A DNA stretch of 54,584 nucleotides. Origin: a virus. The stretch lies in the IMG/VR virus record IMGVR_UViG_3300044641_002452, positions 1-54,584 of that record; one strand, given 5' to 3'. Shown here in pieces: positions 34,808 through 51,968 of the stretch. The notes below the pieces were generated by a model that was not told where the DNA came from, made no database searches, and saw only the letters and a program-made list of their open reading frames with translations. Numbering within the stretch: position 1 is the stretch's first letter; each line of letters begins with the position of its first letter. The position numbers were made by a program, and so were the translations under genes.

Positions 34808-34821
34808 GATAAATATTTATA
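34808..34821. promoter_or_regulatory. Overlapping bidirectional late promoter pair
   Basis: GATAAATA on the plus strand (34808-34815) overlaps TATAAATA on the minus strand (34814-34821), because the region ATAAATATTTAT is nearly palindromic. It lies between the divergent acetyltransferase (minus) and desaturase (plus) genes. Confidence 0.55.
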
Positions 34822-35573: not shown

Positions 35574-36325
35574 AACAATATTTGTATCCAAGAGAATGGT
35601 TTTTTATATTAATGCAGATTATTGCTAGCATTGTCACAATGTGGGCAATCTTTAATCCTGCAGGATTGAGTTATTGGCTTACCGCAATATTTGGTTACTT
35701 TTTGATAACATGCTTAGGTGTGTCTGTTACATTTCATAGATTATTAACTCATAAATCCTACAAGTTAGCGAAGCCTTTAGAATATTTTTTCAGTTATCTA
35801 GGTAATCTGGGATGTACAGGTAGTTCTGTGGGGTGGGTTTTTGTACATAGAACTCATCATAAATTTGCAGACAAGCCCGGCGACCCGCATAGTCCTGTTG
35901 TACTTGGCCCAATGGGGGCAATCATAGGAGACTATACAAGCAAGTTTAACAAGTGGGAAGTCAGAGATATCATTAATGATCCTGTGCACAGATTTATGCA
36001 TGAATACTACATGCTAATAGTGTTAGCAACTGTACTTGTATTGTACATGATTGATCCATTGTTATCTGTATATCTATTCTGGATTCCAATGTTCTTAAAC
36101 ACAGTAGCATCTAGATTGAGTAACTGGATCGATCATGATCCTAAATTTGGCACACAAGCTGATAAAAGTAAAGATCAATCTCATAATGTTTGGTGGTGGG
36201 CTTTACTAACATTTGGTGAAGGTTGGCATAACAATCATCATTTATATCCCGGTGACTATCGAATAGGAAGAAAATGGTGGGAGTTTGATCCGGCGGGACT
36301 TATTATTAAATTGATAAAAACGTAA
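35570..36325 (+). CDS. Fatty acid desaturase, copy 3
   Basis: 251 residues. Histidine boxes: HRLLTHKSYKL (about residue 51), HRTHHKFADKPGDPHSP (about 96), and HNNHHLYPGDYR (about 222), with 'WWEFDPAG' at the end as in acyl-CoA desaturases. Overlaps copy 2 by 4 nt and the PP-loop gene by one base (TAATG). Tandem desaturases in one operon may act on different positions or chain lengths; this is inference. Confidence 0.89.
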   Translation: MKQYLYPREWFFILMQIIASIVTMWAIFNPAGLSYWLTAIFGYFLITCLGVSVTFHRLLTHKSYKLAKPLEYFFSYLGNLGCTGSSVGWVFVHRTHHKFADKPGDPHSPVVLGPMGAIIGDYTSKFNKWEVRDIINDPVHRFMHEYYMLIVLATVLVLYMIDPLLSVYLFWIPMFLNTVASRLSNWIDHDPKFGTQADKSKDQSHNVWWWALLTFGEGWHNNHHLYPGDYRIGRKWWEFDPAGLIIKLIKT

Positions 36326-41103: not shown

Positions 41104-41104
41104 G
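41033..41104 (+). repeat. 20-bp perfect inverted repeat abutting tRNA-Arg(ACG)
   Basis: Arms 41033-41052 and 41085-41104 are perfectly complementary, with a 32-nt loop that contains GGGTAAAC...ACCC. The right arm ends on G1 of the tRNA. Confidence 0.9.
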
Positions 41105-41180
41105 CGACCTTAGCTCAGATGGATAGAGCACCAGGCTACGAACTTGGGGGTCAGGAGTTCAACTCTCTTAGGTCGTACCA
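41104..41180 (+). tRNA. tRNA-Arg(ACG)
   Basis: Anticodon ACG at 41138-41140 in a CTACGAA loop, acceptor 7 bp with a G-U at position 1, discriminator A, CCA encoded. Reads CGU, and CGC/CGA if A34 is deaminated by the host. Confidence 0.95.
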
Positions 41181-41187
41181 ATAGTAT

Positions 41188-41264
41188 GGTGCTTGTCGTC
41201 AAGCGGTTAAGACCTCGGATTGTGATTCCGATATACGTGGGTTCGAATCCCATCAAGCACCCCA
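41188..41264 (+). tRNA. tRNA-His(GTG)
   Basis: Anticodon GTG at 41222-41224. The extra G at -1 (41188) faces C73, the His identity feature. CCA is encoded. Confidence 0.95.
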
Positions 41265-41265
41265 T

Positions 41266-41340
41266 GGATGTATAGCACAGCGGTAGTGCATCTCCTTCAT
41301 ACGGAGCAGGTCAGTAGTTCAAATCTACTTACATCCACCA
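41266..41340 (+). tRNA. tRNA with CAT anticodon (Met elongator or Ile2)
   Basis: Anticodon CAT at 41298-41300, acceptor GGATGTA/TACATCC, discriminator A, CCA encoded. If C34 becomes lysidine it would read AUA as Ile; sequence alone does not decide. Confidence 0.9.
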
Positions 41341-41344
41341 ATTC

Positions 41345-41419
41345 ACCGCTATAGCTCAGTGGTAGAGCACCGCCTTGATAAGGCGTAGGTCCCTGGTTCA
41401 AGTCCAGGTGGCGGTACCA
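41345..41419 (+). tRNA. tRNA-Ile(GAT)
   Basis: Anticodon GAT at 41377-41379, standard D and T arms, one G-U in the acceptor, CCA encoded. Confidence 0.94.
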
Positions 41420-41437
41420 AATTTTAAGGAGACTCAA

Positions 41438-41527
41438 ATGAGTTGGAATCAATCAGTAGAAAAGCATAAACAAGAAATTGAAGCATGGACACATTTATGT
41501 AATGTGTACAAGGAGTCTCTTTATTAA
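41438..41527 (+). CDS. Very small ORF (29 residues) between tRNAs
   Basis: MSWNQSVEKHKQEIEAW..., with a good AAGGAG ribosome site 8 nt before the ATG. Amphipathic and helical. It ends 9 nt before tRNA-Gln. The strong ribosome site is the only support for expression; function unknown. Confidence 0.5.
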   Translation: MSWNQSVEKHKQEIEAWTHLCNVYKESLY

Positions 41528-41536
41528 AGATAAAAT

Positions 41537-41614
41537 ACCCCCTTCGCCAAGTTGGTCTAAGGCATCGGATTTTGATTCCGACACACCGAGGTTCGAATCC
41601 TTGAGGGGGTGCCA
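41537..41614 (+). tRNA. tRNA-Gln(TTG)
   Basis: Anticodon TTG at 41572-41574, acceptor ACCCCCT/AGGGGGT, discriminator G, CCA encoded. Confidence 0.93.
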
Positions 41615-41621
41615 AACATTA

Positions 41622-41629
41622 TATAAATA
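41622..41629 (+). promoter_or_regulatory. Late promoter (TATAAATA), 8 nt before the next start
   Basis: TATAAATA ends 8 nt before the ATG at 41638. Same close spacing as at 31160, 51247 and others. Confidence 0.55.
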
Positions 41630-41637
41630 GTTATATT

Positions 41638-42306
41638 ATGATTAATCTTAACCCACCCATTGTTGATACTAGAGTTATAGATAATTTTTTATCTAATACA
41701 GAGGTTGAATCTATTTTACTTGAAGCTATTACCGTAGATCCAAACGCTATATCTGAAACATATTCCGAAAATGAATTAGAATGTAAAATTACGTCAATAT
41801 TAGATAATCCGTCGATGAAAAATTCTGATTTGTTATTAAGAGAAAAAATGCATAAAGAATTTGGAGCTGATTTAGTTATAGGTGGGATGCATATATTAGA
41901 ATCATATACTCCATACCGAACACATATAGATGGTATATATGGGGAATATGGAATAGATGATGACCACTATGGTGCATATACAGTTGTTATTCCATTAGAA
42001 ACAGTAGATTCTAATACTGTCATTTTTAATGAATGGTATACCACTAGTAAAAATATTGACGAATACATTCAAAAAGCAGACCCCATTGATTCTATAGATG
42101 ACGAAACATATGAAAAATACCTTTCATATGAGTTGAGAGAAAAAATGAGATACTTATCAATTGAAACCGTTTTCCCATGGAAGACCGGTTCATTGTTGGC
42201 AGCCAGCCGATATAAATGGCACTGTAGCGATAACTATCTTAAAAATGGCATAGAATCGAAAACTGCTGTAATCATGTGGTGTACGTTGCCTTATAAAAGT
42301 AAATAA
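41638..42306 (+). CDS. 2OG-Fe(II) oxygenase-like protein
   Basis: 222 residues. 'ESYTPYRTHIDGIYGEYG' gives a HxD pair near residue 100 and 'LLAASRYKWHCSDNYLKNGIESKTAVIMW' gives the distal His near residue 199 with an Arg/Lys partner. The core between them, 'YGAYTVVIPLETVDSNTVIFNEW', is the jelly-roll typical of the family. It is an isolated gene between tRNAs with its own late promoter, like a mobile accessory module. Substrate unknown. Confidence 0.65.
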   Translation: MINLNPPIVDTRVIDNFLSNTEVESILLEAITVDPNAISETYSENELECKITSILDNPSMKNSDLLLREKMHKEFGADLVIGGMHILESYTPYRTHIDGIYGEYGIDDDHYGAYTVVIPLETVDSNTVIFNEWYTTSKNIDEYIQKADPIDSIDDETYEKYLSYELREKMRYLSIETVFPWKTGSLLAASRYKWHCSDNYLKNGIESKTAVIMWCTLPYKSK

Positions 42307-42479
42307 TAATTTTCAAAGTTTATGGGATAGACGATAGGTTCGAGTCCCTGCCAATCTAGTCACCGTGGGGTTAACTGTGATGACACTATAGTATGATTGA
42401 TGGGTGTATAAACTTGCCTATACGAGACAATCTAGCGAGGCTTACTAACAATAAGATAGTTAGGCTCCCACCTTTATAA
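42307..42479 (+). ncRNA. Structured non-coding stretch with a tRNA-like T-arm fragment
   Basis: No gene. GGTTCGAGTCCC near 42337 looks like the T-loop of a decayed tRNA without the rest. A hairpin built on CTAAC/GTTAG occupies 42436-42475. It may be a tRNA pseudogene remnant followed by a leader of the tRNA-Phe transcript. Confidence 0.4.
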
Positions 42480-42555
42480 GCCAAGATAGCTCATCAGGTA
42501 GAGCACTAGTTTGAAGCACTAGGTGTGGTTGGTTCGAGTCCAACTCTTGGTACCA
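42480..42555 (+). tRNA. tRNA-Phe(GAA)
   Basis: Anticodon GAA at 42513-42515, clean 5-bp anticodon stem CTAGT/ACTAG, G-U at acceptor position 1, CCA encoded. Confidence 0.93.
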
Positions 42556-42557
42556 AT

Positions 42558-42632
42558 GGGTCCTTAGTTCAATGGATAGAATACGATGCTTCGAACTTCG
42601 GGATGTGGGTTCGATTCCTGCAGGACCCGCCA
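42558..42632 (+). tRNA. tRNA-Arg(TCG)
   Basis: Anticodon TCG at 42591-42593 in CTTCGAA, one mismatch in the anticodon stem, acceptor GGGTCCT/AGGACCC, discriminator G, CCA encoded. Reads CGA/CGG. Confidence 0.85.
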
Positions 42633-42680
42633 ATACGGCATTAAATACAATTAGTGACAATAGCAGAAAAGGAGTTTTAC

Positions 42681-43241
42681 ATGGCTGTTCTAGCACTAGA
42701 TATCTCAGGAGTTCCCCGGCAGTGGATCTCAAATGATGACGCAATTACCTATAAAGCAAAAGATGCCATAGCATGGTCAATGGGGGAAATTGTGGCTAAA
42801 TATCGTGGTGGCATACAAAAAGACGGTACATTAAGTTACTTGGAAGCTACTAGTATTATTGCTATCAAAGGACACGGATTCAACCCATACAAACATTCTT
42901 GTGTAGCACTAACTAACAAAACATTATTTGGTCGTGATAGACATGTATGCGCTTACTGCGGTGAACACTTTCCTAACTTTCACTTACTAAGTAGAGATCA
43001 TATTCATCCAAAGAGTAAAGGTGGTGAGAACACCTGGATGAACGTTGTTACAGCTTGTAAAGATTGTAACAGCAAGAAAGGTCACAAGACATTGAAAGAA
43101 GCACGTATGGAATTAATTTATGCACCTTACGTACCTAATCATTACGAGAATATGATATTACAACATAGAACTATTCTTGCAGACCAAATGGAATACTTGC
43201 TTGCCGGTGTTCCCAAACACAGTAGAATATTATTATCATAG
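42681..43241 (+). CDS. HNH endonuclease
   Basis: 186 residues from ATG 42681 with AAGGAG as ribosome site. The HNH core is in the middle: 'HVCAYCGEHFPNFHLLSRDHIHPKSKGGENTWMNVVTACKDCNSKKG', with two CxxC zinc knuckles and RDHI as the catalytic His. The N-terminal 90 residues are of unknown type; the C-terminal 'PNHYENMILQHRTILADQMEYLL' is a helical tail. This kind, with a long N-terminal extension, is also common in bacteria as a free-standing HNH protein. It lies between tRNAs, so it may be a homing element or a host-DNA nuclease. Ends in TAG, just before a promoter. Confidence 0.85.
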   Translation: MAVLALDISGVPRQWISNDDAITYKAKDAIAWSMGEIVAKYRGGIQKDGTLSYLEATSIIAIKGHGFNPYKHSCVALTNKTLFGRDRHVCAYCGEHFPNFHLLSRDHIHPKSKGGENTWMNVVTACKDCNSKKGHKTLKEARMELIYAPYVPNHYENMILQHRTILADQMEYLLAGVPKHSRILLS

Positions 43242-43242
43242 G

Positions 43243-43271
43243 TTGACAAAAAAGTTTTCCTATGATACAAT
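43243..43271 (+). promoter_or_regulatory. Host-type sigma70 promoter (TTGACA-17-TACAAT)
   Basis: TTGACA 43243-43248, 17 nt, TACAAT 43266-43271, starting 2 nt after the HNH stop. Drives tRNA-Thr and tRNA-Asn. Confidence 0.85.
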
Positions 43272-43301
43272 ACTGTTAAATAAACAAGTCGTAAGACAAA
43301 A

Positions 43302-43376
43302 GCCCTTGTAGCTCACTGGTAGAGCACCCGCCTTGTAAGCGGTAGGTAGTTAGTTCGATTCTAACCTGGGGCACCA
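43302..43376 (+). tRNA. tRNA-Thr(TGT)
   Basis: Anticodon TGT at 43334-43336; one acceptor mismatch near position 6; CCA encoded. Confidence 0.9.
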
Positions 43377-43381
43377 AATAT

Positions 43382-43457
43382 TCCTCGATAGCTCAGTTGG
43401 TAGAGCACCGGACTGTTAATCCGTAGGTCCCTGGTTCGAGCCCAGGTCGGGGAGCCA
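43382..43457 (+). tRNA. tRNA-Asn(GTT)
   Basis: Anticodon GTT at 43415-43417, good stems, discriminator G, CCA encoded. Confidence 0.95.
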
Positions 43458-43478
43458 ATCAAATAGTTATTGTCACAC

Positions 43479-43507
43479 TTGACAATAAATCAATTCTCTG
43501 CTATAAT
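43479..43507 (+). promoter_or_regulatory. Host-type sigma70 promoter (TTGACA-17-TATAAT)
   Basis: Perfect consensus boxes with a 17-nt spacer (TTGACA 43479-43484, TATAAT 43502-43507). Starts tRNA-Arg(TCT). Confidence 0.9.
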
Positions 43508-43528
43508 AGAGGCAAGTTAGACATTTAT

Positions 43529-43603
43529 CTGGGGTTAGTATAATGGATAATACAGCTGCCTTCTAAGCAGTCAATACAGGTTCGATTCCTGTACCCCGGA
43601 CCA
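43529..43603 (+). tRNA. tRNA-Arg(TCT)
   Basis: Anticodon TCT at 43562-43564, acceptor CTGGGGT/ACCCCGG with one G-U, discriminator A, CCA encoded. Reads AGA/AGG, frequent in AT-rich phage genes. Confidence 0.93.
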
Positions 43604-43607
43604 AAAT

Positions 43608-43636
43608 TTGACAATAAATCAGTTTAGTGCTATACT
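43608..43636 (+). promoter_or_regulatory. Host-type sigma70 promoter (TTGACA-17-TATACT)
   Basis: TTGACA 43608-43613 and TATACT 43631-43636, 17-nt spacer, 5 nt after tRNA-Arg. The spacer resembles that at 43479, so these two promoters are probably duplicates. Confidence 0.85.
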
Positions 43637-43689
43637 CTAGTTATAGATTGATTGAACAAGTTCTTGGAAACAGAGACACAAAAAAGAAT

Positions 43690-43718
43690 TTGACAACAAA
43701 TGGAAGTTATGATACAAT
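43690..43718 (+). promoter_or_regulatory. Host-type sigma70 promoter (TTGACA-17-TACAAT) before the ncRNA and tRNA-Glu
   Basis: TTGACA 43690-43695, 17 nt, TACAAT 43713-43718. Followed by a GCATGAGTTGAGAAA leader almost the same as that after the 40384 promoter. Confidence 0.87.
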
Positions 43719-43724
43719 CATAGC

Positions 43725-44146
43725 ATGAGTTGAGAAAGTCATCAGACATTTCAACAAAGTTCTTTAAAATTTAGAATTCATATATCCCTGTTAAGTTCAG
43801 GGCTCTATATGTAAACATATTAAGGGTTACCTGATCCGTTAGGTACTCTATGGAAGCATAACCAGTTGACGGACTGGCTTCGCATAGAGTACAAGAAGCG
43901 TATGATAACGAAAGTTACGAACGTGACGGGCAGTTAGGCAGTAATGACGAATGACATTGAATCAGTAGACGGTACTGACTATTTGTTTAGTAGTTCCCAT
44001 AGTGTGTTTTCATATAGTGTGTTATTAGTTTTGCTGATGTAAGCCCTTGGGTAAACGTCAACCCTACGTAACTATGACGATAAACGGTAGTGTGGCCACC
44101 AATTCCGTTGAGACATAGCAAATAGTGCGTCAGCAAAACTAATAAC
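43725..44146 (+). ncRNA. Structured non-coding RNA between a strong promoter and tRNA-Glu
   Basis: About 420 nt with no ORF of note. Structures seen: a stem of GTACTCTATG/CATAGAGTAC with GAAGC/GCTTC above it, enclosing CCAGT/ACTGG (43850-43892); a GAAA tetraloop stem TAACGAAAGTTA near 43905; and an 18-bp (plus one G-U) inverted repeat at 44021-44039 and 44128-44146, 5 nt from tRNA-Glu, with GGGTAAAC...ACCCT inside. A GTTCTTTAA sequence at 43759-43767 resembles rRNA boxA. Not identified as a known RNA family; perhaps analogous to the stable RNAs C and D of the T4 tRNA cluster. Confidence 0.6.
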
Positions 44147-44151
44147 ATAAT

Positions 44152-44227
44152 GCTCGGTTCATCTAGTGGCCTAGGATAGTGCCCTTTCACGGCATTCACA
44201 CGGGTTCGAATCCCGTACCGAGCTCCA
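44152..44227 (+). tRNA. tRNA-Glu(TTC)
   Basis: Anticodon TTC at 44186-44188 in CTTTCAC, acceptor GCTCGGT/ACCGAGC, discriminator T (unusual; Glu normally has G), CCA encoded. Confidence 0.92.
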
Positions 44228-44432
44228 GTATCCCGTTACTATTTTCGTTAAAATAGCGTTTGATTAATGATAGAGATCCGGTGGCAGAAAACCGTTAGCG
44301 TGAGGATTAAAAATACCCTCGCAGGCTCTGATAGGCAGATTCTCACTGCACACAGACTTTGAATAAATGAGATGGACAGAGTAACCGCTCAATTAAGGGC
44401 TTGTGTGGAAACAAGTAGCTTATACTAATTTT
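44228..44432 (+). ncRNA. Structured non-coding RNA element (repeat family copy 1)
   Basis: No ORF. Contains a 7-bp stem CTATTTT/AAAATAG (near 44242), and a stretch TGGACAGAGTAAC..CTCA..GGCT..TGTGG..GTAGC at 44373-44419 that closely matches 48919-48964. Located between tRNA-Glu and tRNA-Tyr, so probably cut from the same precursor. Confidence 0.6.
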
Positions 44433-44516
44433 GGAGATGTAGGAAAATTGGTAACCCCAGGAGACTGTAAATCTTCCGCTTCGGCACTGTTGGTTCAACT
44501 CCAACCGTCTCCACCA
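44433..44516 (+). tRNA. tRNA-Tyr(GTA)
   Basis: Anticodon GTA at 44467-44469, long variable arm as expected for class II, CCA encoded. Confidence 0.94.
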
Positions 44517-44588
44517 AGACAAATAGTGTAGCAATATACTCAATGTTTGTTAGTTTCAATGGGTTGTATAGAAACTATCACAGATTTT

Positions 44589-44665
44589 GCACCGTTAGAT
44601 CAGTTGGTTAGATCGCATGCCTGTCACGCATGAGGCCAGGGGTTCGAGTCCCCTACGGTGCGCCA
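44589..44665 (+). tRNA. tRNA-Asp(GTC)
   Basis: Anticodon GTC at 44623-44625, textbook arms, discriminator G, CCA encoded. Confidence 0.97.
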
Positions 44666-44671
44666 TAATAT

Positions 44672-44700
44672 TTGACTACAATCATTGTATGATATATAAT
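44672..44700 (+). promoter_or_regulatory. Host-type sigma70 promoter (TTGACT-17-TATAAT)
   Basis: TTGACT 44672-44677 and TATAAT 44695-44700, 17-nt spacer. A start near 44707 would give tRNA-Leu with a 6-7-nt leader. Confidence 0.75.
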
Positions 44701-44713
44701 GATAACAAGATTT

Positions 44714-44799
44714 GCGACTGTGGTGAAATAGGTAGACACAAGAGACTTAAAATCTCTCGCCGTAACAGCGTGCCGGTTCGATTCCGGCCAGTCGCACCA
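44714..44799 (+). tRNA. tRNA-Leu(TAA)
   Basis: Anticodon TAA at 44748-44750, long variable arm present, acceptor GCGACTG/CAGTCGC, CCA encoded. Confidence 0.95.
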
Positions 44800-44835
44800 A
44801 ATTTTTAAGTTCTCTGTCCATATAAAGGGTGATAC

Positions 44836-45240
44836 ATGAAAAAAATAGGCTTAGTATTAATGTTTCTTTTACTTACCGGGTGTTCAACATTAAAACCAAT
44901 CTCAACTAATAGTTGTGGTATAGAATACCCCACAGTAACAGATAACTATGTATGCTCTAAGTTAACAGGTAATCATTTAGCTAGAGACATGCGACCTTCA
45001 ATGCCCGATCATACATGTATAACCTGTCATGCAGTAGATAACGGAATGTGGAAAAGACCCTTTAACGGCCTTCGCGGGTTATTACCAAATGAATTAGAAG
45101 TTGCTAAACTTGTTAGAAAAAATATGGCATTACCTGACGATTGTATTAGAGATTGTTTGGATATACAAAAAATAAAAGATGTTAGTAAAAGAAATGAAAT
45201 CGTCAAAGAAAGGCGAGAACAAGTTTTAAGAAATAATTAA
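44836..45240 (+). CDS. Lipoprotein with a CxxCH motif
   Basis: 134 residues. Signal peptide at 1-15 ending in a lipobox 'LLTGCS' (Cys16), so it is probably a lipoprotein in the host inner or outer membrane. Residues about 60-64 read CITCH, the haem c attachment motif, in 'DHTCITCHAVDNGMWKRPFNG'. Four other cysteines are present, so a metal-binding or disulfide role is also possible. The C-terminal third is a charged helix. Ribosome site AAAGGGTG. Between tRNA-Leu and another tRNA. It could be a spanin-like outer protein, but no partner is seen. Confidence 0.7.
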   Translation: MKKIGLVLMFLLLTGCSTLKPISTNSCGIEYPTVTDNYVCSKLTGNHLARDMRPSMPDHTCITCHAVDNGMWKRPFNGLRGLLPNELEVAKLVRKNMALPDDCIRDCLDIQKIKDVSKRNEIVKERREQVLRNN

Positions 45241-45247
45241 AAATAGC

Positions 45248-45324
45248 GCCTCGGTAGCTCAATTGGTTAGAGCAGTGGACTCATAATCCATTGGTTACAG
45301 GTTCGAGTCCTGTCGGAGGCACCA
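45248..45324 (+). tRNA. tRNA with CAT anticodon (Met elongator or Ile2)
   Basis: Anticodon CAT at 45282-45284. Body is like elongator Met, but an Ile2 role is possible. One acceptor mismatch; CCA encoded. Confidence 0.88.
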
Positions 45325-45330
45325 TGTATA

Positions 45331-45418
45331 GGAGAGTTGGGTGAGTGGTTAAACCAACAGATTGCTAATCTGTCATCCAGCAATGGGTGCGTGGGTTCGA
45401 ATCCCACACTCTCCACCA
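45331..45418 (+). tRNA. tRNA-Ser(GCT)
   Basis: Anticodon GCT at 45364-45366, long variable arm TCATCCAGCAATGGGTG, acceptor GGAGAGT/ACTCTCC, CCA encoded. Confidence 0.96.
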
Positions 45419-45419
45419 A

Positions 45420-45602
45420 TCATTTCTTTTTTGCTCGGTCTATGATTTCATTGCGAAACATAGGATTTTCAATCATCATCCGAGCAAGCATACCAGTAAG
45501 GTAACCTCGTTCATATAATAATTGTTCGTGGCTATCCTTATAATTACGGTTGTTTTGACGCAACAACTTTTCAACTATATCAATGCAGTCTTGGATATCC
45601 AT
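45420..45602 (-). CDS. Small ORF on the minus strand with a late promoter
   Basis: 60 residues, helical: MDIQDCIDIVEKLLRQNNRN..., ending in a basic RAKKK. On the minus strand TATAAATA (plus-strand 45607-45614) is followed after 4 nt by the ATG at 45602, the same close spacing seen for other accessory genes. No function is recognised. Confidence 0.55.
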   Translation of the reverse strand: MDIQDCIDIVEKLLRQNNRNYKDSHEQLLYERGYLTGMLARMMIENPMFRNEIIDRAKKK

Positions 45603-45823
45603 ACTGTATTTATAAAAGAACGTTCCGGGTGTCTCCGGATACTGTGACCCACAGGATGAGAAGTAGCGTGACAGCTACGGGTGGTAGTCTTTAAACCCAA
45701 AGGCCGCTGGCAATGCGAGAACGGTCCCTGTTTCGGGAAGCGGGTGGAAGGAGTGTGTGATGGGTATGATAGCGTCATGTCTTGATACTCTATAATTACC
45801 GCCGGGGGATGCCAGAGCAATAT
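45603..45823 (+). ncRNA. Structured non-coding stretch before tRNA-Cys
   Basis: No ORF of note. Stem GTAGC/GCTAC (near 45663), and TCCCTG/CGGGA (45724-45737) are visible. The minus-strand late promoter of the small ORF overlaps its start. It may be a leader or an RNA of its own. Confidence 0.4.
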
Positions 45824-45899
45824 GTGGGTGTGTACTGAATGGTTAGGTAGCGGATTGCAAATCCGTGACATGCAGGTTCGACCCCTGTCACCCACTCCA
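45824..45899 (+). tRNA. tRNA-Cys(GCA)
   Basis: Anticodon GCA at 45857-45859, acceptor GTGGGTG/CACCCAC, discriminator T, CCA encoded. Confidence 0.93.
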
Positions 45900-45922
45900 A
45901 ATTTTTTAACAAAGGAAACGAC

Positions 45923-45979
45923 ATGAAACGCAGTAAGCGATAGTGTCATCATAGACTTCCGTAGGTCTATGATTGGCAC
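45923..45979 (+). promoter_or_regulatory. Mini-ORF MKRSKR followed by a 14-bp hairpin
   Basis: An AAAGGAAA ribosome site precedes ATG 45923; the ORF reads six codons and stops at TAG 45941-45943. The stop's G begins a stem (45943-45956 with 45964-45979, one bulge). The pairing could let a ribosome on the mini-ORF affect the hairpin, as in a leader peptide. tRNA-Lys follows at 46004. Confidence 0.4.
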
Positions 45980-46003
45980 GTAAAATCAATCATTACGACT
46001 TAT

Positions 46004-46077
46004 GGGAGTGAAACTTTAAGGTGAAGTAACCGGCTTTTAACCGGTAAAATTCGGATCGTTCCCGAACACTCCTACCA
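46004..46077 (+). tRNA. tRNA-Lys(TTT)
   Basis: Anticodon TTT at 46036-46038, acceptor with one G-U, CCA encoded. The T-loop reads ATCGTTC rather than the usual TTCRANY, and the D arm is irregular, so it may be diverged. Confidence 0.8.
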
Positions 46078-46180
46078 TATAAAAACACATTTACCCTACG
46101 CCCGATTAGTAAGGGAGATAGCGACTAAACGCTGAAGAAAGGTTTAAAAGTGTGTTTCTATATGGTATAATAAATACTAT
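46078..46180 (+). ncRNA. Structured stretch after tRNA-Lys
   Basis: The CCA of tRNA-Lys and the following bases (46075-46090, CCATATAAAAACACA) pair with 46150-46165 (one mismatch), closing a loop with ACCCTACG and CGACTAAACGCTGAAG. No ORF. A late promoter (AATAAATA, 46169-46176) lies just after it. Confidence 0.45.
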
Positions 46181-46369
46181 ATGATAGTACAAAGTATAAC
46201 AAACAGTTGGGATATGGTTTATAACCAATATCGCAACACCGAGTATCGTACTCTAGTAGATCCTAAGACAAATAAAACAGTTTTAGAAGTCATACAATAC
46301 CTTTACGACAATACAGGAAAAATAGAACCTGCCGCTAAAGGTCAAAACGTAGATATACTAATAAAATAG
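46181..46369 (+). CDS. Small ORF with late promoter, abutting tRNA-Ser
   Basis: 62 residues: MIVQSITNSWDMVYNQYRN.... AATAAATA ends 4 nt before the ATG. Its stop TAG shares its last G (46369) with the first base of tRNA-Ser(TGA). Function unknown. Too short to exclude a chance ORF, but promoter and layout match other accessory genes. Confidence 0.5.
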   Translation: MIVQSITNSWDMVYNQYRNTEYRTLVDPKTNKTVLEVIQYLYDNTGKIEPAAKGQNVDILIK

Positions 46370-46460
46370 GAAGCGTGGCAGAGCCCGGTTTATTGCAACA
46401 GTCTTGAAAACTGTCGGATGTTAATGCGTCCCGTGAGTTCGAATCTCACCGTTTCCACCA
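46369..46460 (+). tRNA. tRNA-Ser(TGA)
   Basis: Anticodon TGA at 46405-46407, long variable arm, acceptor GGAAGCG/CGTTTCC, CCA encoded. First base overlaps the stop codon of the ORF before it. Confidence 0.93.
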
Positions 46461-46469
46461 AGAGAATTT

Positions 46470-47015
46470 ATGAAAAAAGATTTAATATTAATTGCATTGA
46501 AAGAAGAAGCACCTGACATGGCTTTCAGTATGAAAGTATTTTACACAGGTGTAGGAAAAGTAAATGCCGCAATGACTGCGGCTGAGTTGATTGCCAAGTA
46601 CAACCCTGATCGTGTTATCAACTTTGGTACAGCAGGTGGAGTTACTGTTAAGTCAGGATTCCATCAAGTGTCAAAGTTTATTCAACGTGATATGATGTGC
46701 TGTGAGTTAGGTAGTCTACCAGGTCAAACACCATTTGAAGATACTATCATCATTGATAATGGTGATGGATTAACTTGTAGTACAGGTGATAACTTTGTCA
46801 CAGATAGTAACTTATTAATTCCTGCTGATGTAGTAGATATGGAAGCATACGCTATTGCGAAAGTATGCAGGAAACATAAAGTAGAGTTTCTATGTTACAA
46901 GTTTGTTAGTGACGGAGCCAATGATGATTCACTAAATGACTGGCGTTCAATGGTCAGTAAAGGTCAATCACATTACTTAGACAAATTAAAAGAATTAAAT
47001 ATCTCCCTAATGTAA
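46470..47015 (+). CDS. MTA/SAH nucleosidase-like protein (PNP/UDP phosphorylase fold)
   Basis: 181 residues. Family enzymes cut adenine from 5'-methylthioadenosine or S-adenosylhomocysteine. Seen here: 'VFYTGVGKVNAAMTAAELI' (N-terminal loop), 'RVINFGTAGG', 'CSTGDNFVTD' and 'VDMEAYAIAKVCR', the ribose-binding Met-Glu of the family. The Asp near the C-terminus ('SDGAND') fits the catalytic Asp. It is about 50 residues shorter than MtnN, mostly in loops. It may dispose of SAH left by SAM-using methylases. Overlaps the tRNA-Trp gene by 15 nt. Confidence 0.8.
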   Translation: MKKDLILIALKEEAPDMAFSMKVFYTGVGKVNAAMTAAELIAKYNPDRVINFGTAGGVTVKSGFHQVSKFIQRDMMCCELGSLPGQTPFEDTIIIDNGDGLTCSTGDNFVTDSNLLIPADVVDMEAYAIAKVCRKHKVEFLCYKFVSDGANDDSLNDWRSMVSKGQSHYLDKLKELNISLM

Positions 47016-47074
47016 TGGCAGCATACCGGTCTCCAAAACCGTTAGTCAAGGTTCGAATCCTTGGGGGGATGCCA
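47001..47074 (+). tRNA. tRNA-Trp(CCA)
   Basis: Anticodon CCA at 47033-47035, acceptor ATCTCCC/GGGGGAT with one G-U, discriminator G, CCA encoded. The 5' 15 nt are also the last codons of the upstream gene. Confidence 0.92.
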
Positions 47075-47076
47075 AA

Positions 47077-47244
47077 TTATTCTAGTGATTGAATAAATGC
47101 TCTAGCAGGCTCAACGCTACTAAAGAACTTCATTTGCATAGTGAAGTTCACAAGATCATGTACCATAATGTAAAAGGATTCATCTTCCATCATTGAAAGA
47201 TGGATGTGTAATCCGGAATTTGTAATAGCATCGTAAATGTGCAT
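47077..47244 (-). CDS. Small ORF on the minus strand with a late promoter
   Basis: 55 residues from ATG 47244: MHIYDAITNSGLHIHLSMM..., ending VEPARAFIQSLE. On the minus strand CATAAATA (plus 47250-47257) lies 5 nt before the ATG. The same positions form the start of the divergent SGNH-like gene (ATG 47255). Function unknown. Confidence 0.45.
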   Translation of the reverse strand: MHIYDAITNSGLHIHLSMMEDESFYIMVHDLVNFTMQMKFFSSVEPARAFIQSLE

Positions 47245-47254
47245 AAGTATATTT

Positions 47255-48022
47255 ATGAAAAAATTATTAATCACCTCAGGTTGTAGTTTTAGTGAATGTA
47301 TTAGTTATGCAAATAAAGCGTGGCCTATACATTTATCTAAAGAATTAACTGACTATGATCATAAGAGTTATGCAATGGGTAGTCAGGGTAACGGACTTAT
47401 AAGTAGAAGTATAATATATGGTGTACTAGAAGCACTAAAGACACATAAACCAGAAGATATACTAGTAGGTGTTATGTGGAGTGGTTCTAATAGACATGAC
47501 TTTAGATGTACATCACCTGGTTTATTACATTTTGTATCTGATAAAGTACATAATGGATGGATGGAAAATCCAACTGGTTTTGTAAAAGATAGTACAAAAA
47601 ATTGGGTAATACTTAATACCAATTGGGCAGAAAATAATAAAGAAGCGATGACATATTATAAAATGTTCCATGATGAAATAGGATCAAGTATATATTCGAT
47701 TGAGCATATATTGAAAACACAATGGTTTCTAAAATCAAAAAATATTAAATATTTTTTTACTAATTATATGGACGATAATATTGTTCTGCCTGAAAATATA
47801 ACACATCCTGAAATAGATTACTTATATAAACAAATTGATACAGAGCAGTATCTTCCTATAACTAGTCAGTATAATTGGATATCAAAAAATTCAAAATACG
47901 CAGAGTCTAATCCTGAAGAATGGAATATTCTTACAGGTCCACATCACCCCACAACAGAGATGCATAAAGAATTTGTTGATGAGGTTATTGTGCCCTGGTT
48001 AAGTGAAAGAAAATATATATAA
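47255..48022 (+). CDS. SGNH-hydrolase-like protein
   Basis: 255 residues. Starts at ATG 47255 (a further upstream start, 47237, adds six residues). N-terminus 'LLITSGCSFSECISY' carries GxSxxxx block I, and 'MGSQGNGLISRSI' gives a second Gly/Asn block; 'LTGPHHPTTEMHKEFVDEVIVPWL' has the His of block V. Related to the proteins at 39498 and 53419. Its stop is directly followed by tRNA-Gly at 48023. Confidence 0.6.
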   Translation: MKKLLITSGCSFSECISYANKAWPIHLSKELTDYDHKSYAMGSQGNGLISRSIIYGVLEALKTHKPEDILVGVMWSGSNRHDFRCTSPGLLHFVSDKVHNGWMENPTGFVKDSTKNWVILNTNWAENNKEAMTYYKMFHDEIGSSIYSIEHILKTQWFLKSKNIKYFFTNYMDDNIVLPENITHPEIDYLYKQIDTEQYLPITSQYNWISKNSKYAESNPEEWNILTGPHHPTTEMHKEFVDEVIVPWLSERKYI

Positions 48023-48096
48023 GCGGGGTTCGTATAGTGGTAATACCTCAGATTTCCAATCTGATGCGGACAGTTCGATTCTGTTACCCCGCTCCA
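48023..48096 (+). tRNA. tRNA-Gly(TCC)
   Basis: Anticodon TCC at 48055-48057, acceptor GCGGGGT/ACCCCGC, discriminator T, CCA encoded. Starts in the base after the SGNH-like gene's stop codon. Confidence 0.94.
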
Positions 48097-48111
48097 AGTT
48101 ATCCAAAACAG

Positions 48112-48140
48112 TAGACAGATAAATAGTTCTCTGTTACAAT
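48112..48140 (+). promoter_or_regulatory. Host-type sigma70 promoter (TAGACA-17-TACAAT)
   Basis: TAGACA 48112-48117, 17 nt, TACAAT 48135-48140, upstream of tRNA-Leu(TAG). A GATAAATA (48118-48125) lies in the spacer, so this start could serve both early and late transcription. Confidence 0.6.
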
Positions 48141-48156
48141 ACGTATTGAAATGAAT

Positions 48157-48233
48157 GCCCTGGTGGTGAAATTGGTAGACACAGCGGTCTTAGAAGCCGT
48201 AAACTGAGAGTTCGAGTCTCTCCTAGGGCACCA
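48157..48233 (+). tRNA. tRNA-Leu(TAG), with short variable arm
   Basis: Anticodon TAG at 48191-48193, acceptor GCCCTGG/CTAGGGC. The variable region is about 5 nt (AAACT), where Leu tRNAs normally carry a long arm. Body otherwise typical of Leu; CCA encoded. Confidence 0.85.
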
Positions 48234-48278
48234 AAGAATATTGGGGGTGTAGGTAAATATCAAAATGTAGAGCGTTTG

Positions 48279-48286
48279 CATAAATA
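48279..48286 (+). promoter_or_regulatory. Late promoter (CATAAATA) before an HNH gene
   Basis: CATAAATA 26 nt before the ATG at 48313. A more usual leader than the close-set examples. Confidence 0.4.
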
Positions 48287-48312
48287 GTATACGGACTACA
48301 AAGAATTATACT

Positions 48313-48699
48313 ATGAATACATTTAACTGCCTACACTGTAACAGAGAAAACACTGTAAAGCGTAATAATAAAAATAAGTTTTGCGACAATCAATGTCAGG
48401 CTGATTTTACTTTTAAAGATTTAACTATGCCTAAATTTTACTTAGGTGAGGTAAAAGATAGACGGACACTGAATAAGATTATCACAAAACTAACAGGATA
48501 TAAATGTGCTTGTTGTAGTAATAACGGAATACATAACAATGTGCCGTTAGCATTACAGTTAGATCATATAGATGGCAATGCTGGTAATAATATGCCTGAA
48601 AATGTAAGGCTGTTGTGTCCAAACTGTCATAGCCAAACTGCATCATATGCTGCCAAGAATAAAGGTAGTGGACGAGGAAGTAGAGGCTTACTGAGATGA
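48313..48699 (+). CDS. HNH endonuclease
   Basis: 128 residues, compact. A zinc-ribbon start ('CLHCNRENTVKRNNKNKFCDNQC') is followed by the HNH centre 'LQLDHIDGNAGNNMPENVRLLCPNCHSQT' with the full catalytic His. This is the common phage homing type that cuts in conserved genes. Stop TGA at 48697-48699 directly precedes tRNA-Ala. It may target a tRNA-region or conserved gene in rival phages. Confidence 0.88.
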   Translation: MNTFNCLHCNRENTVKRNNKNKFCDNQCQADFTFKDLTMPKFYLGEVKDRRTLNKIITKLTGYKCACCSNNGIHNNVPLALQLDHIDGNAGNNMPENVRLLCPNCHSQTASYAAKNKGSGRGSRGLLR

Positions 48700-48775
48700 G
48701 GGGGATTAGCTCAGTTGGGAGAGCGACTGGTTTGCAACCAGTAGGTCATCGGTTCGATCCCGGTATCCTCCACCA
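48700..48775 (+). tRNA. tRNA-Ala(TGC)
   Basis: Anticodon TGC at 48733-48735, acceptor GGGGGAT/ATCCTCC with one G-U, CCA encoded. It starts immediately after the HNH stop. The Ala G3-U70 determinant is not at the usual place; the G-U at pair 3 is consistent with Ala identity. Confidence 0.92.
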
Positions 48776-49043
48776 ATAAACCCGCGTTAACTCAGCGTAA
48801 TAGAGTTAGGTAATTGCTAATACCTTAATAGCACAGTGCATTGGATCTACTGCAAGGCTTGTTTAAAGCGACTTGAAAAATCACAAAGGCGGACTTCTAA
48901 CCGTCTAGATTGAAGAAGTGGACAGTGTAACAACTCAGAGACTGGGCTATGTGGTGTAGTAGCAGTCTCACTTTATAAATGTGTTTCATACCCAGCTGAT
49001 AAGACTGGCTCTGTAAGTGAAAAAGAAATACATTTATAAATTA
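48776..49043 (+). ncRNA. Structured non-coding RNA element (repeat family copy 2) before initiator-like tRNA
   Basis: No ORF. Includes a TGGACAGTGTAAC..CTCA..GGGCT..GTGG..GTAGC stretch at 48919-48964 matching 44373-44419. Ends in a 16-bp stem, 48972-48987 with 49025-49040 (one G-U), 3 nt before tRNA-fMet. ACCCGCG at 48780-48786 is complementary to the tRNA's first seven bases. Likely processed together with the tRNA. Confidence 0.6.
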
Positions 49044-49118
49044 CGCGGGTAGGGTTGGTCACCACACCGGTCTCATAAGCCAGGTGCATCGGCAGTTCGA
49101 ATCTGTCACCCGCATCCA
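49044..49118 (+). tRNA. Initiator-like tRNA-Met(CAT)
   Basis: Anticodon CAT at 49074-49076. The first base pair is C1-A72, the unpaired end that marks bacterial initiator tRNA; the rest of the acceptor is 6 bp. The anticodon stem has two of three expected G-C pairs (28-42 is a mismatch). Discriminator T, CCA encoded. Initiator identity is inferred from C1-A72. Confidence 0.75.
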
Positions 49119-49121
49119 AAT

Positions 49122-49649
49122 ATGAAATATTTTAATCAGATTGAAATACAAAACTTTGAGGTCATTCAAGAAAAGACCAAAAAGTTTCTTGAACATCATT
49201 CATCGGTGAGAGTAGGGTTCTCCTTACTAGATAAGGACTACCTTGAATATTGTCCTGAAATATTGTCTGCGTTTGCAGACTATAATCTAAAGGTAAAAAA
49301 AGTTGCGTTGTACGTAACCTTCCTACAAGAACATTCTAAAGTTCATATTGACTATAAGAGTAATCTTAAATCACAATGTCGAATCAATATTCCTATTTTG
49401 AATTGCGAAGGCTCACGCACTGAATTTTATTCAGGTGGTGAGTATACTATGTTTTTTCAACAGAATGGAATACCTTATTACTTATTGAAAGATAATTCAA
49501 TACCTACTAAGGTAGCAGAGGTTGAAATCATTAGACCTACAGTAATTAGGGTTCAAGAACCACATAGAGTGCATACAAATATGAATACAGTTCCAAGAAT
49601 CTGTATGACGGTTGCTACAGATATTGATCCAGTGTTTCTATTAACATAA
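49122..49649 (+). CDS. 2OG-Fe(II) oxygenase-like protein
   Basis: 175 residues, starting 3 nt after the tRNA. 'LQEHSKVHIDYKSNLKSQCRINIPIL' gives a HxD pair at about residue 79 and 'VQEPHRVHTNMNTVPRICMTVATD' a distal His at about 149 with Arg behind. Same fold plan as 33148 and 33704. Together with the next gene it forms a pair of related oxygenases. Substrate unknown. Confidence 0.62.
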   Translation: MKYFNQIEIQNFEVIQEKTKKFLEHHSSVRVGFSLLDKDYLEYCPEILSAFADYNLKVKKVALYVTFLQEHSKVHIDYKSNLKSQCRINIPILNCEGSRTEFYSGGEYTMFFQQNGIPYYLLKDNSIPTKVAEVEIIRPTVIRVQEPHRVHTNMNTVPRICMTVATDIDPVFLLT

Positions 49650-49652
49650 ATA
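49645..49652 (+). promoter_or_regulatory. Late promoter (CATAAATA), 6 nt before the next start
   Basis: CATAAATA ends 6 nt before ATG 49659 and overlaps the stop of the preceding gene. Confidence 0.5.
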
Positions 49653-49658
49653 TATTAT

Positions 49659-50294
49659 ATGATTAAACCAGCCGATAATTTGTTGTTTGCTAGAATAGAT
49701 GGTATACCCATCTTAGATAAGAAAAAAGCCTCCAAAGAAATTTTAGCACTTGATAGTAAGTTAAGTTTTTGGGACAACTATAGACATACACAAATGTTTC
49801 CTTTAAACACTAAAGGCGGGATAGGTGTCGACGGAACTAGTAATAATCAACCGGGTGACTTTTGTTGGGTTAGTCATACTCCTGCAGTAATCGTTGATTG
49901 GTTTGAAGATTATATTTTTCCCTGGATAGGCTGTAAAGCTAGAGTAATGGCGTTGATAACAAAACCAGGTGGGGCAAACAACGAACATATTGATTGTAGT
50001 CCCCATGAGTTGAACACGTTACAACATAAGATAAGAATTGTTTTGCAAGGTAATACTAGTACACTATACTGGATTACTGATAAAGGAAAAGTATCTGCTC
50101 CTGATATAGAACATGCATTTGTAATGGATGGTGGCTTCCCTCACGGGATGATTAACACATCAGATGAATGTAAGGTTACATTAGCATTAGGTGCACCTTG
50201 GAATGGTAAAGATCAGTATGATGATATTACTATATTGCAATATCGAAATGAATACAAAATGCCTGATGATGTGAGTCACTTGTGGAAAAAGTGA
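49659..50294 (+). CDS. 2OG-Fe(II) oxygenase-like protein
   Basis: 211 residues. 'GGANNEHIDCSPHELNTLQHKIRIVL' gives HxD at about residue 110 and 'VMDGGFPHGMINTSDECKVTLALGAPW' a distal His at about 163. Typical jelly-roll strands between. Sequence differs strongly from the upstream gene, so the two are old paralogues. Substrate unknown. tRNA-Pro follows after a late motif. Confidence 0.62.
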   Translation: MIKPADNLLFARIDGIPILDKKKASKEILALDSKLSFWDNYRHTQMFPLNTKGGIGVDGTSNNQPGDFCWVSHTPAVIVDWFEDYIFPWIGCKARVMALITKPGGANNEHIDCSPHELNTLQHKIRIVLQGNTSTLYWITDKGKVSAPDIEHAFVMDGGFPHGMINTSDECKVTLALGAPWNGKDQYDDITILQYRNEYKMPDDVSHLWKK

Positions 50295-50310
50295 TTCGAT
50301 AACATCGGGC

Positions 50311-50318
50311 TATAAATA
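50311..50318 (+). promoter_or_regulatory. Late promoter motif (TATAAATA) before tRNA-Pro
   Basis: TATAAATA ends 3 nt before tRNA-Pro at 50322. It may start late transcription of the following tRNA and small-gene unit. Confidence 0.4.
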
Positions 50319-50321
50319 ATT

Positions 50322-50398
50322 CGGAGTGTGGCGCAGTCTGGTAGCGCACCTGGTTTGGGACCAGGGGGTCCAAGGTTCGAATCCTTGTACTCCGACCA
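50322..50398 (+). tRNA. tRNA-Pro(TGG)
   Basis: Anticodon TGG at 50356-50358, acceptor CGGAGTG/TACTCCG with one G-U, discriminator A, CCA encoded. Confidence 0.95.
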
Positions 50399-50420
50399 AG
50401 TTTAATTTAAAGGAAATCAA

Positions 50421-50606
50421 ATGAGTAAAGGTAGTAGACCAAGACCATTTAGTATAAGTTTAGAGGAATTAGCCGATAAGCATGATGCTATATTCGGTAA
50501 GAAGCCACCAAAAGAACGATACGTTCCTCCTCCTCTCCCTGACATGAATGTAGAAAAGCCAGTCATTGATTGGGGAAATGTTAAAGACAGTGAACAAGGT
50601 GGTTAA
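50421..50606 (+). CDS. Small phage protein, 61 residues
   Basis: AAAGGAAA ribosome site. 'GSRPRPFSISLEELADKHDAIFGKK' at the start recalls short conserved proteins of T4-like marine phages, with a Pro-rich middle. Function unknown. It lies between tRNA-Pro and tRNA-Val. Confidence 0.65.
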   Translation: MSKGSRPRPFSISLEELADKHDAIFGKKPPKERYVPPPLPDMNVEKPVIDWGNVKDSEQGG

Positions 50607-50616
50607 ATAAAATAAA

Positions 50617-50692
50617 GGGTCGTTAGCTCAGTTGGTAGAGCGTCTGCCTTACACGCAGAATGTCGGCAGTTCGAGCCTGTCACGACCCACCA
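50617..50692 (+). tRNA. tRNA-Val(TAC)
   Basis: Anticodon TAC at 50650-50652, acceptor GGGTCGT/ACGACCC, discriminator A, CCA encoded. Confidence 0.96.
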
Positions 50693-50698
50693 ATCATT

Positions 50699-50848
50699 AT
50701 GAAATTATTTGAAGCAACAGTAAGAGTGAACGGTAAAGAGTTCACAGACAGAGTAGGAGCAAACAATGCTGAAGAAGCACGTATGCTATTACAACAACGT
50801 CATGGACCTAGAGCAGTTCCTTATATGCCAAAAATGATACCAAGTTAA
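50699..50848 (+). CDS. Small protein, 49 residues
   Basis: From ATG 50699, 6 nt after tRNA-Val: 'KLFEATVRVNGKEFTDRVGANNAEEARMLLQQRHG', an alpha/beta pattern seen in short phage proteins. A longer reading would run through the tRNA. No ribosome site. Function unknown. Confidence 0.6.
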   Translation: MKLFEATVRVNGKEFTDRVGANNAEEARMLLQQRHGPRAVPYMPKMIPS

Positions 50849-50850
50849 AT

Positions 50851-50926
50851 GCGGGATTAGCTCAGTTGGTAGAGCGATACCTTGCCAAGGTATAGGTCGA
50901 GAGTTCGAGCCTCTTATCCCGCTCCA
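50851..50926 (+). tRNA. tRNA-Gly(GCC)
   Basis: Anticodon GCC at 50884-50886; reads GGC and GGU. Acceptor GCGGGAT/ATCCCGC, discriminator T, CCA encoded. It is the tRNA that would decode the GGU codons of the iscU hop site. Confidence 0.96.
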
Positions 50927-50951
50927 TTTTTTACAACCAAAGAAAGAAACT

Positions 50952-51164
50952 ATGACAGAATCAAGAGCACGTTATACAAGTGAAGAAGCCGCCAACGCAG
51001 TTGGAAATCGGTTTGATTTAGTACTCATTGCCGCACAGCGTGTAAGAGAATTAAAGCGAGGACATCGTTCTACACTTAATACTAAAGCAGGTCCTACAGT
51101 TACAGCATTGATGGAAATTGAAAAGGGTCTTGTTGGCAGAGACTATTTAAGACGTATTCGATAA
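50952..51164 (+). CDS. rpoZ: RNA polymerase omega subunit-like protein
   Basis: 70 residues. 'VGNRFDLVLIAAQRVRELKRGH' followed by 'KAGPTVTALMEIEKGLVGRDYLRRI' matches RpoZ: helix 1 with NRF-LVL-A--R-R-L, then the loop and the 'PTV-AL-EI--G' helix. Length is near the bacterial norm (80-90). Omega chaperones the beta' subunit and supports ppGpp response. A phage version may replace or compete with the host subunit. Ribosome site AAAGAAAG. Confidence 0.82.
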   Translation: MTESRARYTSEEAANAVGNRFDLVLIAAQRVRELKRGHRSTLNTKAGPTVTALMEIEKGLVGRDYLRRIR

Positions 51165-51173
51165 ACTATAATA

Positions 51174-51195
51174 GCGGGCATCATTAGATGCCTGC
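51174..51195 (+). terminator. Hairpin after rpoZ, weak terminator
   Basis: 9-bp stem GCGGGCATC/GATGCCTGC with an ATTA loop. No T-run follows, so factor-independent termination would be poor; it could stabilise the 3' end. Confidence 0.4.
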
Positions 51196-51246
51196 CAAAC
51201 CATCCAGAATGGTAATTTACTCAAAATTTTAATACATCATATTGTA

Positions 51247-51254
51247 TATAAATA
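51247..51254 (+). promoter_or_regulatory. Late promoter (TATAAATA) before the sugar cassette
   Basis: TATAAATA ends 6 nt before ATG 51261, the first gene of a coupled cassette running to the window's end. Confidence 0.6.
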
Positions 51255-51260
51255 TGTTGT

Positions 51261-51968
51261 ATGCTTAATATTTTAATTCCATTGGCAGGTGAAGGTAGTA
51301 GATTTAAAAATACCCACAGTTTACCTAAACCCTTAATATCAATAAATGATAAGCCTATGATTGTAAGAGCAATCGAAAGTTTAGGGATTACTGGTAAGTA
51401 TCATTTTGTTATTCGCAATAATGAATTCATGCAACAAACAATAGGTGCAATTTACAGCATCTGTCCTGATCCAAACATTGTTTCAGTTAATTATACTCCC
51501 AATGGAGCTGCCGCATCCGCATTAATTATGGAAGACTATATTAATAAAGATGATGAATTAATTATTGCAAATTGTGATCAAATAATGAATTGGAATGCAT
51601 ATGATGTAATTTCTGACATGAGAACATATGACGGGGCAGTAGTTACAATAACTGATAATGATCCAAAACATAGTTATGTAAGAATAGAAGATGGCTTTGC
51701 AATACAATTTGTTGAAAAGGAAGTGATTAGCAAACATGCACTAACCGGCATACACTATTGGAAACATGCAAAATATTTTTTTGAATCAGCAAAACGTATG
51801 ATAAACGATGGTAAAAAATCAGCGAATGGTGAATATTACATAGCACCTACATACAATTATCTAGTAAAAGAGGGGATGGATATTGGAGTATGCAGAATAC
51901 AAAATTCAGAATTTTACCCGGTAGGCACTCCCGAAGATTTGGAGAAGTATTTATATGATAGTAGGTAA
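51261..51968 (+). CDS. Sugar-phosphate nucleotidyltransferase
   Basis: 235 residues. 'NILIPLAGEGSRFKNTHSLPKPLISINDKPMI' is the N-terminal G-x-G-x-R...PK signature of NTP_transferase enzymes, which join a sugar phosphate to an NTP. 'DELIIANCDQIMNW' supplies the metal-binding Asp; 'NGEYYIAPTYNYLVKEG' and 'FYPVGTPEDLEKYL' resemble RmlA-type C-terminal parts. First gene of the cassette; overlaps the next by 14 nt. Sugar unknown. Confidence 0.85.
   Translation: MLNILIPLAGEGSRFKNTHSLPKPLISINDKPMIVRAIESLGITGKYHFVIRNNEFMQQTIGAIYSICPDPNIVSVNYTPNGAAASALIMEDYINKDDELIIANCDQIMNWNAYDVISDMRTYDGAVVTITDNDPKHSYVRIEDGFAIQFVEKEVISKHALTGIHYWKHAKYFFESAKRMINDGKKSANGEYYIAPTYNYLVKEGMDIGVCRIQNSEFYPVGTPEDLEKYLYDSR

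Follow-up and report, generated by a model that had tools for sequence, protein, structure and literature searches.

Does a large phage that carries a gene resembling rpoZ make a true omega subunit of RNA polymerase, and if so, what might that subunit do to transcription in the infected cell? Phages usually seize host RNA polymerase (RNAP) by way of new sigma factors, small inhibitors or polymerases of their own, and in the literature that we searched we did not find exchange of a core RNAP subunit for a phage version. The question is raised by a short gene near the end of a 54,584-base IMG/VR virus record, which as a whole is referred to here as the window, and in which the endolysin and RNR resemble phage ones.

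A phage gene for a true omega subunit

The gene lies on the plus strand at positions 50952-51164, starting with an ATG at 50952 and ending with a TAA stop at 51162-51164, and its product is the 70-residue protein MTESRARYTSEEAANAVGNRFDLVLIAAQRVRELKRGHRSTLNTKAGPTVTALMEIEKGLVGRDYLRRIR. This protein matched both PF01192 (Pfam RNA_pol_Rpb6; E 1.7e-11, 44.4 bits against a cut-off of 26) and TIGR00690 (NCBIfam rpoZ; E 2.5e-10, 40.3 bits against a cut-off of 23.6), and a phmmer comparison with omega chains from the PDB returned matches down to 4e-12. Similarly, a profile of the phage family matched solved omega chains at 3e-17, and PF01192 was matched by 31/31 aligned phage relatives. A PHROGs search with the window protein matched no omega family, and PADLOC gave no match for the gene.

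The predicted fold agrees with this assignment. An AlphaFold2 model, made from an input alignment of 34 sequences, reached a pLDDT of 84 and a pTM of 0.74, with low confidence for the first ten residues (mean pLDDT 56). The structures closest to the model were omega subunits of bacterial RNA polymerases: the top Foldseek match was 6pss_K (E 1.8e-5), and comparison with E. coli omega by VIA gave a Z score of 10.0 with E. coli residues 3-69 aligned. By sequence and fold, and far above chance, the window protein is a true omega subunit, a point that we regard as settled. A sequence-only reading of the window had already named the product RpoZ from two motifs, NRF-LVLIAA--R and PTV-AL-EI, and had proposed a search with an RpoZ HMM as a check, naming the lack of a fold match to omega as a ground for rejection. 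Both motifs are indeed present, at residues 19-30 and 48-56, profile search and fold comparison returned omega, and the identification is borne out by sequence, fold, genomic context and the phage-only clade described below.

Omega is common in one lineage of uncultured jumbo phages

A viral scan recovered 71 relatives of the window omega, and a profile-guided scan of IMG/VR raised the count to at least 209 viral loci with an omega of the window type. Omega-bearing phage contigs reach 349-364 kb and carry a terminase; the gene is common inside one uncultured jumbo-phage lineage. Because the median pairwise dN/dS among the phage omega genes is 0.14, we conclude that they are under purifying selection.

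Host contamination of the window was considered and ruled out, both by the conserved place of the gene in phage tRNA clusters and by the lack of a close copy in the bacterial contigs and genomes that were scanned. True contaminants in the phage collection provide a useful contrast, since they show the bacterial gene order gmk-rpoZ-spoT, which argues that the window is not host DNA. For example, the omega match in 'Campylobacter phage A11a' proved to be E. coli gmk-rpoZ-spoT DNA, and the match in an Acinetobacter phage record was likewise bacterial, with the same three genes. Records filed as phage that hold bacterial chromosome include MG065691 and CAKLQH020000003, in which gmk-rpoZ-spoT was seen, as well as MG065686 and CAKLQF020000004, which were judged bacterial from the same match alone. 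Apart from such host DNA, no omega was found among 50,697 records of cultured phages, and PF01192 gave 0 matches in seven jumbo phages (Phosso, Paride, PA5oct, Vibrio 2.275.O, GAP32, XacN1 and Atu_ph07). The earlier statement that omega is uncommon in phages is therefore right for cultured phages. When the terminase of a 352-kb relative (G001) was used as query, the nearest cultured terminases, at 50-52% identity, were those of Pseudomonas phages Paride and PA5oct (Wroclawvirus) and of Sinorhizobium phage Phosso.

Several other features of the window and its relatives deserve mention. The window encodes an intact RNR large subunit (21272-23593), but in two relatives (G002:399511-402797 and G415:2656-6359) the gene is interrupted by some 0.9-1.4 kb of inserted sequence that may be an intron or intein. 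The first of these, the G002 contig (524,565 bases), contains two different omegas (loci L026 and L041), and its two genes for the RNR large subunit are in inverted order. We rejected the idea that it represents one phage with two functional omegas, since it has only one main terminase and is probably a chimera in which two phages were assembled together. The window also has three fatty acid desaturase genes (209-916, 34821-35573 and 35570-36325), two of them assigned by Pfam and the third by similar histidine motifs only, and a single strongly repetitive ORF of 3714 aa (9639-20783) that probably encodes a giant virion fibre or adhesin.

The phage omegas form a clade of their own

To place the phage omega among cellular ones, we compared it with species-level bacterial contigs (the GTDB species scan) and with 398 Pseudomonadota genomes. 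The closest cellular omega, from an Alteromonadaceae MAG, was about 57-61% identical, and most others were 39-55% identical. No close bacterial relative was found in the 398 Pseudomonadota genomes or in the GTDB species scan, which used two peptide patterns only and could miss an odd host omega. A tree built from 146 sequences united the 47 phage omegas of the window lineage in one group (support 96/100) whose stem measured 1.61 changes per column; the group was placed among Pseudomonadota omegas in an alignment whose 78 columns are too few to fix its exact sister group or its host. The window omega belongs, in other words, to a phage-only clade.

These comparisons bear on the proposal that the phage simply copies an unusual omega from a group of hosts not yet sampled, in which case the differences described below would mirror the host RNAP rather than adaptation by the phage. 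Should the omega of the host share these changes, the phage version would be a simple mimic. In addition, a second, unrelated phage lineage has a different omega that also lacks the M-A-R start of bacterial omegas, which is what one would expect of phages that track their hosts. Given that the phage clade is a single group on a long stem, and that neither the two-pattern GTDB scan nor the 398 genomes yielded a close bacterial relative, we consider such mimicry very improbable. The second lineage comprises L070 (9965-10234), L071, L072 and L283-L286, on contigs of 52-138 kb; its omega begins MNTDIQKIYSRTGNLFEA, keeps the equivalent of Arg52, and is encoded directly after a tRNA-Gly(tcc) gene.

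The gene sits at the end of a tRNA cluster

Upstream of the omega gene, ARAGORN and Rfam identified a cluster of 26 tRNA genes with small ORFs in between (41104-50926, plus strand), at the end of which the omega gene is located. The tRNA gene directly upstream, tRNA-Gly(gcc) (50851-50926, plus strand), is separated from it by 25 bases, and the next one upstream is tRNA-Val(tac) (50617-50692, plus strand). Among 86 loci with enough upstream sequence, 85 have a tRNA gene no more than 1.41 kb upstream of omega, and in 44 of the 86 it is within 100 bases. The nearest upstream tRNA was Gly(gcc) in 63/86 loci and Val(tac) in 19/86, and in 50 loci a tRNA-Trp(cca) gene was present within 3 kb downstream. 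This setting differs from that of bacterial rpoZ, which is found beside gmk/spoT. In addition to the tRNAs, a phosphoesterase is conserved near phage omega, as is a DUF2828/DUF7788 protein; the latter (e.g. L044 5627-7210) was seen in 16/24 representative loci, and none was seen near the window omega.

The tRNA cluster of the window includes two HNH endonuclease genes (42654-43241 and 48313-48699) as well as a gene for a short PF01048 nucleoside phosphorylase-family protein (46470-47015), which showed a weak match to a PADLOC effector model. A PF01048 gene is also found in L002 (10215-10757), where its start overlaps the end of the gene for omega. The sequence-only reading had further invoked host-type promoters on the tRNA genes. 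This claim found no support in our promoter scan, which covered positions 50300-51400 and returned 3 promoter-like sites as compared to 2.8 expected by chance from shuffled sequences.

The phage omega is predicted to serve the host polymerase

Which polymerase might the phage omega join? Profiles for beta (PF00562) and beta' (PF00623) matched nothing in a set of 12 large contigs, three of them 352, 364 and 524 kb long, although contigs may be incomplete, and the profile for sigma-70 region 2 (PF04542) matched nothing in 14 contigs; in both cases the controls were positive. The profile for single-subunit RNAP (PF00940) matched neither the 14 contigs searched nor any control genome. As far as beta, beta' and sigma-70 region 2 are concerned, these searches led us to reject a phage RNAP operon. 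Since the phages show no multisubunit beta/beta' gene and no sigma-70 region 2, the likely partner is the RNAP of the host. Most simply, the phage omega would join this enzyme, and we strongly infer that it would assemble with host beta'. Jumbo phages of the phiKZ/AR9 type are likewise large phages with parts of a multisubunit RNA polymerase; however, they encode beta/beta'-like subunits, whereas in the present phages we found omega only, without beta/beta'.

A phage omega on host RNAP could act as a recruitment platform, marking the enzyme for a phage transcription factor that would redirect it to phage promoters. There is a precedent in GafA of gene transfer agents, which activates RcGTA through direct contact with omega (PMC9638019). 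GafA is also a case of a virus-like element controlling transcription via omega, but it acts on the host omega, whereas the phage described here brings its own. The lack of a sigma-70 region 2 match in the 14 contigs would suit a platform of this kind, as would the many clade-specific residues that are invariant or nearly so outside the ppGpp region discussed below, namely Val31, Glu33, Lys35-Arg36-Gly37-His38, Gly62-Arg63 and Tyr65-Leu66. However, the conserved neighbours (tRNAs, the phosphoesterase and the DUF2828/DUF7788 protein) include no obvious regulator, and no partner gene was found. We judge recruitment to be unlikely, and treat it as the main rival to a model based on ppGpp.

Every phage omega is altered on its side of ppGpp site 1

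In E. coli, ppGpp site 1 is positioned between omega and beta'. Omega coordinates the phosphates with residues 2-5 and others, and beta' with Arg417 and Lys615; deletion of omega residues 2-5 results in a ppGpp Kd of more than 100 uM (PMC7676912). The MAR motif has been taken as the signature of a ppGpp-binding RpoZ (PMC6416229).

To see how the phage proteins relate to this site we compared 47 distinct phage omegas with 97 distinct bacterial ones. The bacterial set consists of Pseudomonadota only and was taken from the better-scoring matches; therefore, the 97/97 figures below hold for Pseudomonadota and for this sample. The omega core is kept in all or nearly all of the 47 phage proteins (E. 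coli numbering: Ala2, Arg3, Thr5, Asn15-Arg16-Phe17, Arg26, Arg28, Val48, Ala50, Leu51 and Glu53), with Val at the Ala2 position in 4 of them. In fold and core residues the phage omega is thus like its counterparts (RpoZ) in E. coli and Vibrio cholerae, to which it is 42-45% identical over residues 6-70. It differs from bacterial omega in having a shorter C-terminus, and in a set of uniform changes.

First, bacterial omegas start with M-A-R in 97/97 cases and phage omegas in 0/47. The phage proteins instead follow the pattern M-[T/S]-[E/Q]-S-R-A-R, in which an extension of 4-6 residues places Arg where the bacterial start Met would be; in this pattern four residues precede the Arg, and a few members have one more. 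In the window, the extension corresponds to codons 1-5 (M-T-E-S-R; 50952-50966, plus strand), with Arg5 at the start-Met position, and an equivalent is present in 47/47 phage and 0/97 bacterial sequences. Translation from an internal start would not bring M-A-R back, since Arg5 is not encoded by a start codon. Second, codon 47 (51090-51092, plus strand) specifies Gly at the position of E. coli Lys45, as in 46/47 phage omegas, where 97/97 bacterial omegas have Lys. Third, codon 54 (51111-51113, plus strand) specifies Met at the position of E. coli Arg52, a residue that we take to contact ppGpp in the E. coli RNAP-ppGpp structures. This Arg is found in 97/97 bacterial omegas and is replaced by Met, Gln, Glu or Lys in all of the phage ones; its equivalent was present in 0/68 phage sequences and in 0/22 further ones, which also have the extension. 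Further positions that vary little or not at all in the bacteria are likewise uniformly different in the phages, where Val4 is replaced by Tyr, Val6 by Ser, Ala27 by Val and Gln29 by Glu.

Judged from these residues, every phage member has a remodelled omega half of ppGpp site 1, and for this reason the earlier suggestion that the phage omega alters ppGpp sensitivity gains support. With both the M-A-R end and Arg52 changed in all members, an RNAP containing the phage omega would be expected to respond differently to ppGpp, and that it weakens site-1 control is a reasonable inference from the sequences. In line with it, the omegas of B. subtilis and S. aureus lack MAR and have Glu at the Arg52 position. 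Arg52 alone is not diagnostic, since the omega of Streptomyces, like that of M. tuberculosis, retains Arg there without MAR. Moreover, ppGpp binding could persist or even tighten, because equivalents of Ala2, Arg3 and Thr5 remain and Arg5 adds a positive charge. The extra Arg5 could equally make a different or tighter pocket.

The same comparison bears on the null model, in which the phage omega is a plain chaperone or stoichiometry booster that helps beta' to fold and keeps host RNAP stable while a long infection lasts, with no regulatory effect. Folding and recruitment of beta' is the best established role of omega (PMC7700224), and conservation of the residues common to all omegas, together with strong purifying selection, is what such a role would predict. 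It leaves unexplained, however, the uniform phage changes at positions that are invariant in Pseudomonadota (the Met-Ala-Arg start, Val6, Lys45 and Arg52), and we regard it as unlikely.

A model for the phage omega

The reading that we prefer, and to which we give an even chance, is that the phage omega is a working subunit that replaces or supplements host omega on host beta' and changes, most likely weakens, the site-1 response to ppGpp. The omega gene would be expressed during infection, and its product would bind host beta', taking over from host omega or acting alongside it. The resulting RNAP would have altered, most likely weaker, ppGpp sensing at site 1, by which stringent control of the phage genes and the tRNA cluster would be lifted or reshaped. 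Host RNAP could then go on transcribing these genes when ppGpp rises because of the infection or because the host is short of nutrients. A further-reaching version, which we put forward only tentatively, is that evolution in this phage clade has produced a substitute RNAP subunit by which the site-1 sensor is disabled or re-specified, so that host transcription during infection is no longer coupled to the stringent response. Site 2, formed with DksA, is the more critical ppGpp site (PMC7700224), and with the phage omega in RNAP it would still respond to ppGpp. A phage ppGpp synthetase beside omega was also considered and was set aside, as RelA_SpoT was not found in 14 phage contigs.

We found no description of a phage-encoded omega in the open-access literature searched, where absence is not proof, and a study that compared 224 jumbo phages uses neither the word omega nor the word RpoZ. 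What is new here is the genomic setting of a known protein family. As a natural variant, the phage omega offers a tool to probe omega function, and because its changes fall on the omega half of the alarmone site, the gene gives a direct test of whether phages escape ppGpp control. The finding also fits the wider question of how large phages manage to multiply in hosts that are starved and poor in nutrients. Paride, for example, replicates on starved hosts and under an induced stringent response (PMC10761892); as a distant relative by terminase, it provides ecological context only. In the phages described here, a virus may rewire a host enzyme to keep working in starvation.
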